From assembly GCA_040757115.1 (NCBI GenBank), contig JBFLYA010000175.1:1-7800 (forward strand): a stretch of DNA of 7,800 bases, written 5' to 3'. A model generated the notes under the pieces. That model searched no databases and was not told where the DNA came from. It saw only the letters and a program-made list of their open reading frames with translations. Positions 1,424 to 7,800 of this stretch are shown in pieces (positions within the stretch are counted from its first letter, which is position 1; each line of letters opens with the position of its first letter). Made by a program: the position numbers and the translations under genes. Source of the stretch: a bacterium. Its GTDB lineage: Bacteria > UBA9089 > CG2-30-40-21 > SBAY01.

Positions 1424-2164
1424 ATGAAAGAGGTAATTTTAATGTGGCAGAATACAAGAATGGTTGTGTTATGCGCGGTTTGTGCCAGCGTATATACGGC
1501 AATACTTATTCCTTTTAAAATCGCAACCATAATTCCAGGTTTTACCGAGATACGACCTGCGGCGGTTTTACCTGTTGTCTTTTCACTTATGTTTGGACCA
1601 GCGGGTGCCTGGGGGTCTGCGTTTGGTAATTTAATTGGCGATTTCTTTGGAACTTTGGGACCGGGCTCATTTTTTGGATTTATCGGTAACTTCTTGTATG
1701 GATTTATACCATATAAGGTCTGGCAATATATCTCAAAACAAGACCCTGTTTTCAATACCCCAAAGGTAGTTATAAATTATTTTTGCTGTATTGCTTTAAG
1801 TTCCTCAATATGTGGAATGTTTATTGCCTGGGGGGTGGATTTGTTAGGATTTGTCCCGATAACCCTACTGGCGAATATCATTACTCTAAATAATTTTCTT
1901 GTTTGTGTTATCCTGGGACCATTTCTGCTTGTTATTCTCTATCCGAGAGTGAAGAAATGGAGATTACTTTATTCCAATATCTTAACTGAATTACCAAAAC
2001 CAGGAAAATTTGCTGGAATTGGTATTTTATGTTTATTAATTGGTAGCATTGGCGGGCTTATCATCATCAACTTAGGTAGTTTTGGTTTTATTCAATGTCC
2101 AATAACCTGGTGGACAATGACACCAGTTGTGTTACTGATTATTATTGGAACACTGCTTATTTGA
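1424..2164 (+). CDS. ECF-transporter S-component-like integral membrane protein
   Basis: A 246-aa, very hydrophobic protein. It has about six membrane segments (roughly 13-37, 46-72, 80-100, 115-138, 145-175 and 196-217) plus a hydrophobic C-terminal end (232-246). The core (IRPAAVLPVVFS, then FGPAGAWGSAFGNLIGDF at 58-75, then GFIGNFLYGFIPY) resembles S-components of energy-coupling-factor transporters, which bind vitamins, queuosine precursors or metals in the membrane and work with EcfA/A'/T. No EcfA or EcfT gene is nearby, so a shared module elsewhere is inferred and the substrate is unknown. The gene starts 24 bp after rpoD and may be cotranscribed. AAGGAGG (1406-1412) lies 11 nt before the start; ATG 1442, behind AGAGG, is an in-frame alternative. 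The protein ends inside a hydrophobic helix, and the stop codon abuts the heptamer array at 2163, so the C-terminus may be trimmed. The exact family is uncertain. Confidence 0.7.
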   Translation: MKEVILMWQNTRMVVLCAVCASVYTAILIPFKIATIIPGFTEIRPAAVLPVVFSLMFGPAGAWGSAFGNLIGDFFGTLGPGSFFGFIGNFLYGFIPYKVWQYISKQDPVFNTPKVVINYFCCIALSSSICGMFIAWGVDLLGFVPITLLANIITLNNFLVCVILGPFLLVILYPRVKKWRLLYSNILTELPKPGKFAGIGILCLLIGSIGGLIIINLGSFGFIQCPITWWTMTPVVLLIIIGTLLI

Positions 2165-2226
2165 GGGATTCGGGACTCGGGGCTCGGGACCCGGGACTCG
2201 GGAAGAAAAGAATCCCCGAACCCCGA
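2163..2226 (+). repeat. GC-rich heptamer array with inverted arm (TCGGGAC family)
   Basis: Six 7-bp units run in phase from 2163 to 2204: GAGGGAT, TCGGGAC, TCGGGGC, TCGGGAC, CCGGGAC, TCGGGAA. After a purine-rich stretch, 2212-2226 holds about two units in the opposite orientation (ATCCCCGA ACCCCGA). The arms can pair, giving a stem just downstream of the membrane-protein stop codon, which overlaps the first unit. No U-run follows, so it is not a canonical terminator, although it could protect the 3' end. Its GC content is far above its surroundings. Confidence 0.85.
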
Positions 2227-2230
2227 TTTT

Positions 2231-2276
2231 CAGGGGAACGCTCATGAGCTTGCGGCTCACAAAGGGGGATGAAAAT
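2231..2276 (+). other. Structured leader-like element, copy A (buried ATG hairpin)
   Basis: The element has AGGGGAACG, then an ATG (2244) whose TG begins a stem: TGAGC (2245-2249), a 5-nt loop TTGCG, GCTCA (2255-2259). It ends with CACAAAGGGGGATGAAAAT (2258-2276). A second copy on the minus strand (7616-7572) shares the flanks, with 17 of 19 matches in the downstream block, but has different stem bases that still pair. From ATG 2244 an 18-codon frame including the stop runs to TAA 2297 (MSLRLTKGDENNERTTP). From ATG 2269, preceded by AAAGGGGG, a 14-codon frame including the stop runs to TAA 2310. Neither peptide can be called real. The element could be a mobile leader, an RNA structure, or a repeat family retaining translation signals. 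Confidence 0.6.
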
Positions 2277-2297
2277 AATGAAAGAACAACCCCCTAA

Positions 2298-2315
2298 CCC
2301 CCTTTATTAAGGGGG
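2298..2315 (+). repeat. CCCCCTT/AAGGGGG stem-loop
   Basis: This is a perfect 7-bp stem (2298-2304 with 2309-2315) around the loop TATT. The C-rich side could also pair with AAGGGGG at 2262-2268 in the preceding structured element, so two folds compete. No U-run follows. The surrounding stretch (2277-2359) holds nothing else recognisable. Confidence 0.7.
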
Positions 2316-2359
2316 AATATCTGTTCTAAATCATAGGATACGAGTCTGTGGATACTATA

Positions 2360-2390
2360 CTAATTCGCTAATCTCTAATTCACTAATTCG
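2360..2390 (+). repeat. 7/8-bp tandem array (CTAATTCG family), copy 1
   Basis: The units are CTAATTCG, CTAATCTC, TAATTCA and CTAATTCG. The array runs straight into CTATTTTCAGGGGAA at 2391. The same family followed by the same motif stands upstream of recF on the minus strand (7531-7481), which shows that array and motif travel or evolve together. Confidence 0.8.
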
Positions 2391-2411
2391 CTATTTTCAG
2401 GGGAAAGTATA

Positions 2412-2481
2412 GGACGCAGATAAACGCAGATTTTCAGGATTTTTAAATATACATCCTGATAATCTGCGAAAATCTGCGTCC
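2412..2481 (+). repeat. 70-bp palindromic element (ATCTGCG family)
   Basis: The left arm 2412-2440 and right arm 2453-2481 are reverse complements at 25 of 29 positions, around a 12-nt AT-rich loop. Both arms repeat the core CGCAGAT twice. No poly-U tail follows, so it is a foldable repeat and not a standard terminator. A fragment of the same family (AATCTGCGGATTA) lies at 7654-7666 beside the right terminal repeat. As part of the glycosyltransferase leader it ends 26 nt before the start codon. Confidence 0.85.
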
Positions 2482-2495
2482 CATAATCTATTTTC

Positions 2496-2500
2496 AGGAG
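2496..2500 (+). promoter_or_regulatory. Ribosome-binding site of the glycosyltransferase
   Basis: AGGAG stands 7 nt before ATG 2508 and lies inside the repeated motif ATTTTCAGGAGAA. It fixes the start codon. It is noteworthy because the same motif occurs three more times in this window at repeat boundaries. Confidence 0.85.
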
Positions 2501-2507
2501 AAGTATT

Positions 2508-3419
2508 ATGGAAGAAGGTGAAATCTATCTTTCCATTATCAGCCCGGTATATAATGAAGAGGCACATGTAGTTGAATTGTATTTTCGGCTATCAAAGGTT
2601 TTGGCACAAATTGATAAACCTTGTGAGATTATTTTTATCGATGATGGTAGCACAGATAAAACCTATGCCTTGATTAAAGACTTGAAAATGCGTGATGAGA
2701 AAATAAAGATTATCCGATTTATTCGCAATTTTGGGCAATATTTAGCCATAATCGCAGGATTTAATCAAGCAAAAGGCAAGATAATGGTTACGATTGAAGG
2801 TAGTCTCAAAAGCCCACCTGAAGAGATACCTAATTTATTAGAAGAACTAAATAAAGGCTATGATGTTGTCATTGGCGCCATAGGATTACATCAGTTACCT
2901 TCTATTTTTCGACCCTTAATTAATTTTATTAACTGGTTTGTTTCTAAACTTACCGGAACCACGATAAAAGACTATGAATCTCTATTTATGGCATATAAAA
3001 GAGGGGCAGTAAAAATGCTCCTCCAGTGTCGAGAAAGAACCCCATTAATAAAAGCATTACTGAGTTGGCTTGGACTTAAAGTCGGTGAAATAGAACTTGA
3101 TACTACCCATAGTTCCACAAAGACAGTTTTTGATTTATTAAAAGCAGATTTTGAACTTATTACCAGTTTTTCAACATCGCCTATCTCATTCTTAAGCTCT
3201 CTTGGAGTATTTATGGGCTCCCTGGCGATTGTGCTTGGATTATTCTGGTTAATTCAATCATTTATTTTAAACGCAGGCATTAGTATCATCATCGCCTTTT
3301 TATCCATCCTTTTTGGCATACAACTTTATGGACTCGCCTTCCTCGGTAAGTATATTGCAAAAATATATCTCCAAATTCAAGGCAGACCTTATTATATCAT
3401 TGAAGAAATAATTGAGTAA
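2508..3419 (+). CDS. ArnC/GtrB-like family 2 glycosyltransferase with degenerate DxD motif
   Basis: This 303-aa, membrane-anchored GT-A protein resembles enzymes that move a sugar from a nucleotide donor to polyprenyl phosphate at the inner face of the membrane. Landmarks are SIISPVYNEE (9-18), IDDGSTD (44-50), RNFGQYLAIIAGF (73-85), PPEEIP (103-108), DY (155-156), CRERTP (174-179), and two C-terminal membrane helices (about 227-250 and 258-285) followed by GKYIAKIY, as in ArnC. The usual DADLQ, whose last Asp binds the metal, is EGSLK here (97-101). The basic, glycine-containing GxSKY segment before the helices is SSTKT (202-206). The fold is therefore intact while catalytic positions are lost. 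It may be a pseudo-enzyme or have altered chemistry. No sugar or flippase gene is adjacent, so the substrate is unknown. The frame is complete and the start is set by AGGAG 7 nt upstream. Confidence 0.87.
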   Translation: MEEGEIYLSIISPVYNEEAHVVELYFRLSKVLAQIDKPCEIIFIDDGSTDKTYALIKDLKMRDEKIKIIRFIRNFGQYLAIIAGFNQAKGKIMVTIEGSLKSPPEEIPNLLEELNKGYDVVIGAIGLHQLPSIFRPLINFINWFVSKLTGTTIKDYESLFMAYKRGAVKMLLQCRERTPLIKALLSWLGLKVGEIELDTTHSSTKTVFDLLKADFELITSFSTSPISFLSSLGVFMGSLAIVLGLFWLIQSFILNAGISIIIAFLSILFGIQLYGLAFLGKYIAKIYLQIQGRPYYIIEEIIE

Positions 3420-3526
3420 CAGTAACTACTCCTAATCTTTACCTACATCTTTTGGTGGTGTCTGAAAATAACTCTAATAGTGAAATCTATGCAGATTTGG
3501 TGTCCAAAAGGGATTTCCTCCAAAGA

Positions 3527-3718
3527 GCAAAATGCAAAAAGCAAATATAAAAATTACATATCAAAATGTAAAATTATCTCTTTCCTTTCAGCGTTAAAAT
3601 ACTTGAAGCAAAGATATTACCAAATTCCTCCAACTCTTTGAGAAACCCTGTTACTTCCTCTTTGAAATTTGATTTGTAATTTTGCATTTTGATATTTAAT
3701 ATTTGATATTTGATATTT
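3527..3718. repeat. Heptamer-armed inverted-repeat element (TTGATAT family)
   Basis: The left arm, 3527-3575, is seven 7-bp units (GCAAAAT, GCAAAAA, GCAAATA, TAAAAAT, TACATAT, CAAAATG, TAAAATT). The right arm, 3661-3718, has eight degenerate units in the other orientation, ending GATATTT, AATATTT, GATATTT, GATATTT. The best-matched part is 3558-3576 against 3677-3695, 18 of 19 bases complementary. The roughly 85 bp between the arms holds a coding remnant on the minus strand (3574-3687). The element stands between convergent genes. Confidence 0.75.
3574..3687 (-). pseudogene. Possible remnant of a four-helix-bundle protein gene
   Basis: A 37-codon minus-strand frame has its ATG (3687-3685) inside the right heptamer arm and its TAA (3576-3574) inside the left arm. 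Its middle, KEEVTGFLKELEEFGNIFAS followed by SILTLKGKR and the stop, reads like an amphipathic C-terminal helix of the S23/four-helix-bundle proteins found in rRNA intervening sequences and spacers. The first eight residues come from the repeat itself. There is no ribosome-binding site. It is probably the tail of a deleted gene now carried between the arms. The family assignment is weak because only one helix remains. Confidence 0.3.
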
Positions 3719-3821
3719 ATTTGTTGTCTCCCTCAAATCCTATTTTGCAGAACCCTATACACTATTTTAACCTTTATGCTAGATTAAGACACCACCTATT
3801 ATTTATACCGCGATGCTGTAG

Positions 3822-3884
3822 CACGCTAAACACATACCTTTCATTAGTGAATAGTGAACAGATATTCAGTACCTGTTTAGCGTG
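3822..3884. repeat. 11-bp inverted repeat with 41-nt loop
   Basis: CACGCTAAACA (3822-3832) and TGTTTAGCGTG (3874-3884) are perfect reverse complements in the spacer between the convergent glycosyltransferase and gyrB genes. The loop contains TTAGTGAATAGTGAACAG. No poly-U follows either side, so it is not an intrinsic terminator. It may be the paired ends of a small degenerate element. Confidence 0.6.
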
Positions 3885-3950
3885 GTCAGAGAGCACAAAT
3901 GAATGGTACTGACTTAGTGCGAAACTACTTCAAACACAACAAGAGTATTG

Positions 3951-4036
3951 TTGATAGTTGATGGTTGATAGTCTATGAAACTATCAACTATAAACCATAA
4001 ACTATCAACTATAAACTATCAACTATCAACCATCAA
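3951..4036. repeat. Heptamer palindrome downstream of gyrB (CTATCAA family)
   Basis: Eight perfectly phased 7-bp units occupy 3981-4036: CTATCAA, CTATAAA, CCATAAA, CTATCAA, CTATAAA, CTATCAA, CTATCAA, CCATCAA. Facing them at 3951-3971 are three units in reverse orientation (TTGATAG, TTGATGG, TTGATAG). The inner pair 3964-3972 / 3980-3988 forms a perfect 9-bp stem with a 7-nt loop. The block begins about 53 bp past the gyrB stop on the transcript, so it may cap the 3' end of the recF-dciA-gyrB message. It lacks the U-tract of a Rho-independent terminator. Variable unit number between strains would be expected. Confidence 0.85.
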
Positions 4037-4089
4037 CCCTGTTACTATATCTGTTCTATGAGAAGATTTCGTTAATAACTACTATATAT

Positions 4090-5994
<1,905 letters not shown>

Positions 5995-6016
5995 TTAGAT
6001 TACCTCCTCGTTTTTT

Positions 6017-6065
6017 GGTAAATGGTAACTGGTGACTGGTAATTAATTACCAATTACCAGTTATC
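6017..6065. repeat. Heptamer palindrome between dciA and gyrB (GGTAACT family)
   Basis: Four 7-bp units (GGTAAAT, GGTAACT, GGTGACT, GGTAATT; 6017-6044) are followed directly by three inverted units (AATTACC, AATTACC, AGTTATC; 6045-6065). The 38 bp at 6026-6063 is a palindrome except for two symmetrical pairs that become G-U wobbles in RNA on one strand. It begins 2 bp after the dciA stop and ends just before the gyrB ribosome-binding site. In the minus-strand message it would be a strong intercistronic hairpin with no U-tail, suited to RNA processing, differential stability or attenuated coupling. Confidence 0.88.
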
Positions 6066-6067
6066 TG

Positions 6068-6388
6068 TTAAGATTGAAAATATACATCCTTTATAACTTG
6101 CATTCCCACCGCAGAATTAATCTTTTTGATAATATCTTTTTTAAAGAATGAAAGTTCATTACACCAGGCGGAGCTATCAACCTTAACAAAAATTATCTTA
6201 TCCTTGATTGTCAATGGTTTTGTATGGACCGCAACATTAGTTCCAACTACCTCTTGCCATAATTGAATTGCCCGTTCTTCAGCTAATTTATGTGCTAAAG
6301 AAATTTCTCGCCCCTTATCAATTACCTTTATTCTCCGCATCATTTTATCTAACACATTGCCAAATTCTTCAATTCGACGACCTCTCAT
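6068..6388 (-). CDS. dciA: DciA/DUF721 replicative-helicase loading protein
   Basis: A 106-aa DUF721 protein. DciA is the ancestral bacterial partner that helps load the DnaB helicase where phage-derived DnaC/DnaI is absent. The sequence shows an N-terminal helix (IEEFGNVLDKMMRRI), then the family core WQEVVGTNVAVHTKP (44-58), the strand IIFVKVDSSAWCNELSFFK (65-83) with the conserved W75/E78/L79, and a terminal helix-strand (IIKKINSAVGMQVIKDVYFQ), i.e. a KH-like fold. The ATG lies within the 3' end of recF, overlapping it by 20 nt in another frame, with AGGGTGAG (6400-6393) just upstream, so translation is probably coupled to recF. Position between recF and gyrB matches the arrangement known in Actinobacteria and supports the assignment. 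Confidence 0.9.
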   Translation of the reverse strand: MRGRRIEEFGNVLDKMMRRIKVIDKGREISLAHKLAEERAIQLWQEVVGTNVAVHTKPLTIKDKIIFVKVDSSAWCNELSFFKKDIIKKINSAVGMQVIKDVYFQS

Positions 6389-7463
6389 TTATCTCACCCT
6401 GCCTGATTTTAAATATGCAGGCATCCTTTACAAAATCTGGATTTAAGTCATGTAAATCCGTCGTGGTAATAAATACCTGTGTTAGGTCTGGTATAAAATT
6501 TAGAAGAGCCTGACGCCTATTCTTATCCAATTCAGAAGTAACATCATCTAACAAAAGGATAGGAAATTCTTGTGTTTGTTGATAAATATTTTGCACCTGG
6601 GCTAATTTTAAACAAATAGTGATAGTTCTTTGTTGTCCCTGTGAGGCAAAGTATCTTGCCTCAACATCATTTATATAAAAAGAAATATCATCTCGATGAG
6701 GTCCAACTAAAGTTACTTCCTGTCTTATCTCATCTTCCTGCTTATTTTTCTGCGTTTTTCTAAAGTCCTCCTCAACCACACAAGGTCTATATTTTATCTT
6801 TAGTTCTTGCGGCTGTCCACTAATCTGATGATAAACTTCATTAATTAAGGGATTTAAACTATCTATTAGTTCTTTTCTTTTCTTTATAATCTCAATACCT
6901 GTTTCTATTAGTTGTTCATTCCATACCTCTAATTCTGTTATGTCACATTTCATATTTTTCTTAAGGAAAGATAATGTTTGATTCCGCTGTCTAATGATTT
7001 TGAGGTATCTTTGCAGGTTGTATAAGTACTTTGGGGATGTTTGTGAAAGTTCAATATCCATAAATCGTCTTCTTATTGCCGGGGCGCCTTTGATAATATT
7101 CAAATCCTGTGGTGAAAAGACAATTACCTTCAATTCCCCAATCAAATCTATTATCCTGGTGAGCGGTTTATTATTTATTTTTACCTTCTTAAGGTTATTA
7201 GTAAATAAGATGTTAATCTCAAGTGTAGTATTATTTTTCCATATTTCCCCATTCAGATAAAAATCTGTTTGCCCAAATTTAATTAGTTGTCTATCCTCAC
7301 TTGTGCGGAAGGATTTTAGAATACCAAGAAAATATATCGCCTCTAAAAGATTTGTTTTCCCTGCCCCATTTTCTCCCACAAAGATATTTATTTTCGAATC
7401 AAAACTTAACTCGTTATCGAATAAATTTCTAAAGTTTTTGGTAATTATTCTTTTTAAGAACAA
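6369..7463 (-). CDS. recF: RecF, DNA replication and repair ATPase
   Basis: RecF is an SMC-like ABC ATPase that, with RecO and RecR, directs RecA to single-strand gaps; 364 aa, the standard size. Visible motifs are ITKNFRNL near the N-terminus, Walker A GENGAGKTN (30-38), the family segment SPQDLNIIKGAPAIRRRFMD (117-136), GPHRDD (254-259), the ABC signature SQGQQRT (274-280) and Walker B ILLLDDVTSELD (302-313). The coiled region between about 145 and 245 is short, as expected for RecF compared with SMC proteins. The start is TTG at 7463, the only in-frame initiator before an upstream stop; AAAGGTGA (7475-7468) lies 4 nt away. It is the first gene of the recF-dciA-gyrB operon. dnaA and dnaN, which often precede it, are absent from the 337 bp upstream that the window covers. 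Confidence 0.96.
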   Translation of the reverse strand: MFLKRIITKNFRNLFDNELSFDSKINIFVGENGAGKTNLLEAIYFLGILKSFRTSEDRQLIKFGQTDFYLNGEIWKNNTTLEINILFTNNLKKVKINNKPLTRIIDLIGELKVIVFSPQDLNIIKGAPAIRRRFMDIELSQTSPKYLYNLQRYLKIIRQRNQTLSFLKKNMKCDITELEVWNEQLIETGIEIIKKRKELIDSLNPLINEVYHQISGQPQELKIKYRPCVVEEDFRKTQKNKQEDEIRQEVTLVGPHRDDISFYINDVEARYFASQGQQRTITICLKLAQVQNIYQQTQEFPILLLDDVTSELDKNRRQALLNFIPDLTQVFITTTDLHDLNPDFVKDACIFKIRQGEINERSSN

Positions 7464-7480
7464 CTGGTCACCTTTGTATG
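7464..7480 (-). promoter_or_regulatory. recF translation initiation region (TTG start)
   Basis: AAAGGTGA (7475-7468) precedes the TTG start codon by 4 nt. A second Shine-Dalgarno-like AGGAG within the repeated motif at 7496-7481 sits about 20 nt upstream of TTG, too far for direct use. No ATG or GTG is available in frame, so TTG is the most likely initiator and translation may be modest. Confidence 0.7.
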
Positions 7481-7496
7481 CTTCTCCTGAAAATAG
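7481..7496 (-). repeat. Recurrent motif CTATTTTCAGGAGAAG, recF leader copy
   Basis: This copy is identical over 16 bp to 2488-2503, the glycosyltransferase ribosome-binding region. Related copies are at 2226-2238 and 2391-2405 (GGGGA variant). As at 2360-2405, it directly follows a CTAATTC-type tandem array. Confidence 0.88.
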
Positions 7497-7500
7497 TTAA

Positions 7501-7565
7501 TTAGAGATTAGAGAATTAGTGAATTAGAACCTGCACTCTTGCTAATCTCCAATCTCTAATCTCTA
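7501..7565. repeat. 7/8-bp tandem array with inverted arm (CTAATTC family), copy 2
   Basis: Read on the minus strand, 7565-7545 is three heptamers (AGAGATT, AGAGATT, GGAGATT). A spacer follows, and then 7531-7501 holds inverted units CTAATTCA, CTAATTCT, CTAATCT, CTAATTA. The arms can pair to form a stem in the recF leader. It is the second member of the family seen at 2360-2390. Confidence 0.82.
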
Positions 7566-7571
7566 TGCTCA

Positions 7572-7616
7572 ATTTTCATCTTCCTTTGTGCCCACTCCCT
7601 GTGGGCATCGTCGTTT
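7572..7616 (-). other. Structured leader-like element, copy B (buried ATG hairpin)
   Basis: On the minus strand, GGAGAAACG is followed by an ATG (7608) whose TG opens a 7-bp stem: TGCCCAC, loop AGGGA, GTGGGCA (7607-7601 with 7595-7589). Then comes CACAAAGGAAGATGAAAAT (7590-7572). Layout and flanks match copy A, including the 5-nt loop, while stem bases differ in a pairing-preserving way. An 11-codon frame including the stop (MPTGSGHKGR) ends in a TGA that overlaps a second ATG by four bases (ATGA). It lies in the leader of recF, about 110 nt upstream of the TTG, with other repeats in between. Confidence 0.6.
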
Positions 7617-7653
7617 CTCCTATACCCTATGTCAAGGTTAAATATATCTGTGA

Positions 7654-7666: not shown

Positions 7667-7674
7667 ATTTCCAG

Positions 7675-7800
7675 TAAGCGTTCAGGTGGTGTAACAAAAG
7701 GAGATATGGAGATTAAGGAGATAGGGAGATATTATTAAAAAAATTGAAATTAATAGAAACTAATAGAAATTTATGGAAATTTGTTGTTTTCCACAATCAA
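7675..7800 (-). repeat. Right copy of 126-bp terminal inverted repeat
   Basis: This is the reverse complement of 2-127 with a single difference (A at 7706). It contains the same 8-bp and 10-bp arrays, and TTTTCCACA at 7787-7795, which fits the loose DnaA-box consensus. Identity ends precisely at 7675 and runs to the last base of the window, so the true outer edge of the repeat is not seen. Confidence 0.93.

Follow-up and report, generated by a model that had tools for sequence, protein, structure and literature searches.

Short tandem words of seven nucleotides recur in the spacers of contig C175, which belongs to a Desantisbacteria-like metagenome-assembled genome (MAG; 4.3 Mb in 462 contigs, the host genome) and was analyzed here over its entire length of 7,800 bp (the window). 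Based on the results below, we conclude that the heptamer palindromes formed where such arrays face inverted copies are probably, in the main, arms or payload of small non-autonomous mobile elements, namely foldback-type miniature inverted-repeat transposable elements (MITEs) and REP-like hairpin cassettes, with slippage-prone minisatellite arms. The host genome was compared with G001, a sister genome of the same genus that is 98% identical in genes. Both are fragmented MAGs, and the analysis covered about a quarter to a third of each. Gene calling followed a simple open reading frame (ORF) rule, and since the assemblies are from short reads, the copy numbers given for long arrays are approximate.

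A preliminary description of the window had claimed that several unrelated word families share a period of 7 and an inverted layout, and had proposed to look for both across the genome. In 940 kb of unselected contig starts (175 kb of spacer, 765 kb of genes), identity at lag 7 reached 0.316 in spacers compared to 0.266 in genes, with echoes of 0.303 and 0.299 at lags 14 and 21; lag 8 was also raised in spacers (0.303). Strong period-7 arrays numbered 101 in the spacers and 46 in the genes, and Markov controls yielded none. Arrays of other periods were rarer in spacers (22 for period 8, at most 11 for each remaining period from 4 to 24), and a search with a slightly less strict cut-off found three arrays in the 135 kb of spacer at 80 gyrB loci of other genomes. 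Same-family array pairs at most 200 bp apart were inverted in 38 cases and direct in five (15 and five in G001), and an inverted arm was present within 150 bp for 47% of the arrays, as opposed to 6.6% in the flanks of other arrays. Both expected signals are thus present. The diversity of the families is confirmed as well: the 15 main unit words show six near-identical links, which is within the range of random composition-matched heptamers (mean 2.9, maximum 9). One-mismatch chaining joins most observed units into one cluster (60 links, random mean 33), but this count includes within-family variants, whereas the main words alone stay within the random range. Some word families recur at low copy across the phylum.

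Movement of array-bearing elements was observed directly by comparison with empty sites in G001. At least eight insertions have GTAAC-RTTCAG ends and target duplications of 8–9 bp; three have GGTGGTGTCT/AGACACCACC ends, and target duplications of 8–10 bp accompany two of these. Some of these insertions bear AAGTAGG, CTATCAA, TTTGATAT or TTATCGG arrays. In the sequence read, we collected 112 GTAA..TTCAG elements with an exact duplication of 7–9 bp (the property for which they were selected), which fall into 21 interior clusters under one end pair and nearly all of which are without a long ORF. The two arms of these elements match each other in inverted orientation with a median local score of 24, compared to 8 in direct orientation and 13 for the arms of other elements. 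Subterminal words of the class, with periods of 7–10 (CACAGAG, GGAGATA, AAGTAGG, ATTCACA, TGAATGTA and others), oppose inverted partners at the far end; the terminal repeat GTAACTATTCACCATTCACAATTCACAATT itself is a possible source of the AATTCAC family.

IS66 elements begin with GTAA and make 8-bp duplications, and IS1 elements begin with GGTG. The GTAAC-RTTCAG class has short terminal inverted repeats starting with GTAA, as is typical of IS66, and remains of an IS66 transposase (DDE_Tnp_IS66, two stops, no matching target duplication) lie between such ends at L273 892-2455. Between ends of the GGTGGTGTCT class, an IS1-like ORF was detected at L274 1894-3164, although its DDE_Tnp_IS1 score of 20.8 bits is below the curated cut-off of 24.1. 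The window contains a MITE of this second class at 3454-3796; its family has empty sites with a target duplication, but around the window copy no duplication is visible. Other copies of its backbone carry a CTATCAA hairpin in place of the left TTTGATAT arm, i.e., different words occur under one carrier. A third carrier class has the ends TAGTGT(C/G)GTGTTGA and GGTAACT arrays inside, with a duplication too short to call. At another locus (L147 7929-8265), a CTATAAA-family hairpin is nested within the arms of a CAAAACT-family hairpin, and the whole is lacking in G001.

The fourth carrier class is an imperfect palindrome of ~52 nt with the structure ATTTTCAT..TTTGTG-stem-loop-stem-CATG..GTTTCYCCTGAAAAT. 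These cassette units alternate with non-coding payloads, including AGTAGAA, TTAGAGA and CGGGACT arrays. Of the four variable stem positions, 3.75 are paired in the 48 distinct units, compared to 2.39 (maximum 2.83) for shuffled halves; compensatory changes thus preserve the stem of the unit. Cassettes insert at TTTTCAGGAGA-like sites, the motif remaining at the junction, and at one locus the cassette content is entirely different between the host genome and G001 (example array, L026:15713-16578). Assignment to the REP/RAYT system was considered, but none of six Y1 transposase matches is flanked by the unit. Integron attC sites were likewise rejected, as RYYYAAC/GTTRRRY cores are absent and the ends are ATTTTCAT and CTGAAAAT. 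A separate integron does exist in the genome (L131:13612-17700 on contig C39, with an integrase over the curated cut-off, followed by small ORFs and repeated attC-like sites); since the attC-like sites of this one locus read are unlike the cassette unit, the cassettes were not filed as integron cassettes. Several split or partial integron integrase copies occur elsewhere in the genome. It is conceivable, if rather unlikely, that these ~52-nt hairpins, with their fixed ends and covarying stem, form a new type of non-coding cassette. On this view, they would integrate at TTTTCAGGAGA sites resembling a Shine-Dalgarno sequence, restore the ribosome-binding site, and exchange heptamer-hairpin payloads ahead of genes, which would allow a fast and heritable rewiring of translation leaders.

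High copy number is a general property of the sequences around the arrays. At array loci, 70–76% of the 60-bp flanks have at least four copies, compared to 10–12% of sequences 840 bp away, and 147 of the 175 array loci have at least one repeated flank. A simple end search, made with no random-placement control, puts 80 of the 175 loci in one of the four carrier classes. Orthologous spacers of the two genomes differ in content: 34 of 75 contain an array in at least one genome, 17 in both and 17 in one only. The preliminary description had suggested comparing unit numbers between related strains, and variation was indeed found, since eight of 17 same-family array pairs differ in length by at least 5 nt. 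In the gyrB-dciA spacer, both genomes have GGTAACT hairpins, one arm comprising about 3 units in the host and roughly 40 in G001, while the other arm hardly differs. Upstream of recF, the flanks are conserved, yet a TTAGAGA hairpin in the host stands at the site of an AGTAGAG hairpin in G001. The spacer between the genes for the ECF-type transporter S component and the family-2 glycosyltransferase (GT2) contains two extra dispersed elements that are lacking in G001. These differences suggest that hairpins in the leaders of core genes, gyrB and recF among them, can be gained, lost or exchanged within a single genus.

The arms themselves also change independently. Arm pairs are identical at 0.87 and 0.90 in any in-phase register and at 0.27 out of phase, without preference for a register; in 33 of 53 pairs, the arms differ by one unit or more. 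This is what within-arm slippage predicts, but not what arm-to-arm copying predicts. Unit-by-unit hairpin compensation between the arms was tested and not found. Loss of SbcD was considered as a cause of palindrome tolerance and rejected: matches in the host are weak, but the same applies to relatives with few arrays.

Taken together, replication slippage inside each arm would grow and homogenize the words, transposition and cassette exchange would spread and reshuffle them, and the palindromic carrier element would supply the inverted layout. Since many of the arrays ride in elements with terminal inverted repeats and clean target duplications, this layout may well be inherited from the element. 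The recurring period of 7 agrees with a published excess of heptameric repeats in bacteria and might stem from the slippage bias of polymerases put forward there (PMC4692102). Several observations weigh against this explanation. In the simple end-and-motif search, 95 of the 175 array loci could not be placed in any recognized element class, although repeated flanks are present at most of them. The GGTAACT hairpins located before start codons have a bare appearance, and for these the search for a clean empty site gave none. Of the potential autonomous partners, the IS66 type is degenerate and the IS1 type scores below cut-off; both the slippage step and the reason for seven are inferred; and the two genomes compared are fragmented and were read in part. 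The results suggest that mobile foldback hairpins can be both nurseries and carriers of heptamer minisatellites.

The preliminary description had argued that common descent does not explain the shared design, whereas a common process generating heptamer palindromes would. Such a process (template switching, snap-back synthesis or a dedicated enzyme), making palindromes de novo at many spacers, would fit with the main word families being no more closely related than random heptamers, and some hairpins are indeed bare or concentrically nested, as in the CTATAAA/CAAAACT case above. On the other hand, the arrays within each family are dispersed copies with common flanks and element ends, many of them in elements with terminal inverted repeats and target duplications; the arms are not unit-matched and grow singly; and some families recur across the phylum. 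We therefore regard de novo generation as quite improbable, and neither of the two arguments was upheld: descent matters within families, and inheritance from an element would give the layout. It is less probable still that the tandem words are repeated binding sites of a transposase, as in the long repeats of Drosophila Galileo, where this has been tested (PMC3688188). At either end of the elements, the words do start immediately internal to the terminal repeats, and the two sets are inverted relative to each other, but identical terminal repeats accompany entirely different words. An assembly or binning artefact of the fragmented metagenome might be suspected as the contig starts and ends in halves of one repeated element; however, this possibility is practically negligible, as the second genome has the same arrays and elements, and target duplications are resolved to the base.

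Selection of a hairpin subset as mRNA leaders 5′ of Shine-Dalgarno sites within operons, with copy number tuning expression, has to be weighed because of the position of the arrays. In same-strand spacers, 20 arrays end 10–35 bp upstream of a start codon and three are located at this distance after a stop codon (22 and six in G001), while uniform placement expects about 9–10 per 10–35-bp zone. On the sense strand, the arms near starts are rich in pyrimidines (20:3 in the host, 21:6 in G001), and GGTAACT hairpins have a repeated layout of arm, A-rich stretch, AAGGAGG and ATG, e.g., at 6016-6063 before gyrB. Arrays located 8–40 bp upstream of starts have hairpin arms ending just ahead of the Shine-Dalgarno site. 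All the same, the pyrimidine bias follows from hairpin polarity, crowding of the cassette class is explained by its preference for Shine-Dalgarno-like TTTTCAGGAGA targets, and word and copy number vary freely between near-identical genomes. Leader selection is thus unlikely in our view, though better placed than the de novo process, and for the GGTAACT hairpins either target preference or selection may cause the crowding.

That heptameric repeats are overrepresented in bacterial spacers has been known since 2007, without a function or origin being assigned (PMC4692102). The preliminary description saw cyanobacterial short tandemly repeated repetitive (STRR) sequences as the nearest parallel and the inverted arms as special. 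However, 70–75 convergent heptamer pairs per genome were reported in Xanthomonas (PMC4692102); STRR sequences are thus not the nearest parallel, and inverted heptamers as such are not new. The GGGAATC or GGGGA(C/T)T repeats of Xanthomonas and Nostoc resemble those described here in being spacer heptamers, in forming convergent pairs (Xanthomonas) and in changing strongly in length between relatives (PMC4692102). They constitute, however, one G-rich family with quadruplex potential, whereas many, mostly not G-rich families ride on mobile elements here; CGGGACT is the only clearly G-rich family in the unit list, and a G-rich, quadruplex-capable unit does not characterize the host arrays. The TAACTGA heptamers of Beggiatoaceae are likewise concentrated just upstream of start codons (PMC4679880), but they are a single word in direct repeats, bar one inverted case, with no element ends reported (PMC4679880), and TAACTGA is not in the unit list of the host genome.

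Inverted arms of tandem subrepeats define the eukaryotic foldback elements (PMC3573991). Like the elements studied here, Foldback, Galileo and Tetris of Drosophila have inverted arms of short tandem subrepeats, many non-coding copies, variable arm length and exchange between copies (PMC3573991, PMC3688188). The present elements differ in being bacterial, far shorter (about 85–550 bp), equipped with IS66-like and IS1-like ends, and in having several unrelated word families per genome; the analogy concerns architecture only. Bacterial MITEs of the IS66/IS1 type share the short terminal repeats, 8-bp target duplications and lack of a long ORF, but not the arms of tandem 7–10-bp words or the wholly different interiors under one end type. 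The cassette unit, in turn, is comparable to REP/BIME sequences and integron attC sites: it is an imperfect palindrome, its ends are fixed while its covarying stem is variable, and it alternates with payloads. It has, however, no canonical attC cores, no adjacent Y1 transposase, and its payloads are non-coding hairpins. In the open-licence literature searched, nothing relevant was found on prokaryotic MITEs with tandem subterminal words, nor any genome in which bacterial MITEs and hairpin cassettes carry several word families; priority is not established by this search. The genus offers a tractable case, with many word families, two genomes 98% alike, empty sites at base resolution and arms open to unit-by-unit comparison.

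Arrays in the window were checked with Tandem Repeats Finder (TRF), an inverted-repeat finder, and single-strand DNA folding against shuffles (z). The preliminary description had listed phased 7-bp arrays with opposing arms in at least four spacers. This applies to GGTAACT (fold z −3.8) and CTATCAA (z −6.6), but the TCGGGAC array faces an arm of two units and folds no better than shuffles (z −0.7), and the TTTGATAT site is heptameric on its right side only, the left side (3536-3576) being complementary without forming a phased array. A CTAATTC family of period 7 or 8 was said to behave alike; the pair at 7499-7565 is phased and opposed (z −2.5, units mostly TTAGAGA), whereas the array at 2359-2393 is without a local opposing arm, its partner lying 5 kb off.

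Table: Heptamer arrays and mobile-element features of the window
Feature	Position	Strand	Remarks
Half MITE, GTAAC-RTTCAG family, contig edge	1..127	−	Terminal inverted repeat 117-127
TCGGGAC/TCGGGGC heptamer array, left arm	2165..2203	+	TRF, 5.6 copies, 84%; orthologous G001 site shorter
Short opposing arm TCCCCGAACCCCGA, about two units	2213..2226	−	Read directly
REP-like cassette unit (ATTTTCAT..stem-loop..GTTCCCCTGAAAAT)	2226..2276	−	Among the 48 distinct units with covarying stem
181-bp dispersed element: cassette unit and payload with CTAATTC array	2226..2406	+	Many own-genome copies at 89–97%
CTAATTC array, period 8	2359..2393	+	Tandem and inverted repeat finding, folding
102-bp dispersed hairpin element (GGACGCAGAT..ATCTGCGTCC)	2401..2502	+	Copies at 95–99%; absent from G001 spacer
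343-bp IS1-like MITE with GGTGGTGTCT/AGACACCACC ends, carrying TTTGATAT arm	3454..3796	+	Many copies at 92–100%
TTTGATA/TTTAATA heptamer array, right arm within the 343-bp element	3688..3718	+	Tandem and inverted repeat finding
GTTGATA array, left arm	3950..3972	+	Repeat finding and folding
CTATCAA/CTATAAA array, right arm, 8.4 copies	3979..4037	−	Repeat finding; 91 matches in own genome
GGTAACT array, left arm, between dciA and gyrB	6016..6042	+	Ends 24 bp 5′ of gyrB start
GGTAACT array, right arm	6045..6063	−	Orthologous G001 arm roughly 40 units
TTAGAGA/AATTAGTG array, left arm, 5′ of recF	7499..7528	+	TRF; AGTAGAG hairpin at same G001 site
CTAATCT array, right arm	7542..7565	−	TRF
REP-like cassette unit, right end truncated	7572..7620	+	In G001 too, same stem variant bar one base
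Half MITE, GTAAC-RTTCAG family, other contig edge	7674..7800	+	Terminal inverted repeat GTAAGCGTTCAG 7674-7685; absent from G001 at that position

The 181-bp element is mostly lacking at the orthologous spacer of G001, and the neighboring 102-bp element ends in CTATTTTCAGGAGAA, which is the leader with the Shine-Dalgarno site for the GT2 gene. An Rfam search of the window gave no match. Besides the ECF and GT2 genes, the window encodes a sigma-70 factor; recF, dciA and gyrB are on the strand opposite to these three. The nearest relatives of GyrB (69–72%) are from MAGs including Ca. Desantisbacteria CG2_30_40_21 and some Woesearchaeota MAGs. The GyrB of many Woesearchaeota MAGs is almost as near (up to 71%) as that of Desantisbacteria, which suggests gene transfer or binning problems. 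One Woesearchaeota MAG (L057) has two heptamer arrays of the ACGACTT and CTGACAA types near gyrB. Both ends of the contig are halves of one high-copy palindromic MITE (134 bp; 371 first-look candidates, listed copies 98–100% identical), and the contig stops at both edges because the assembler ended inside this element.

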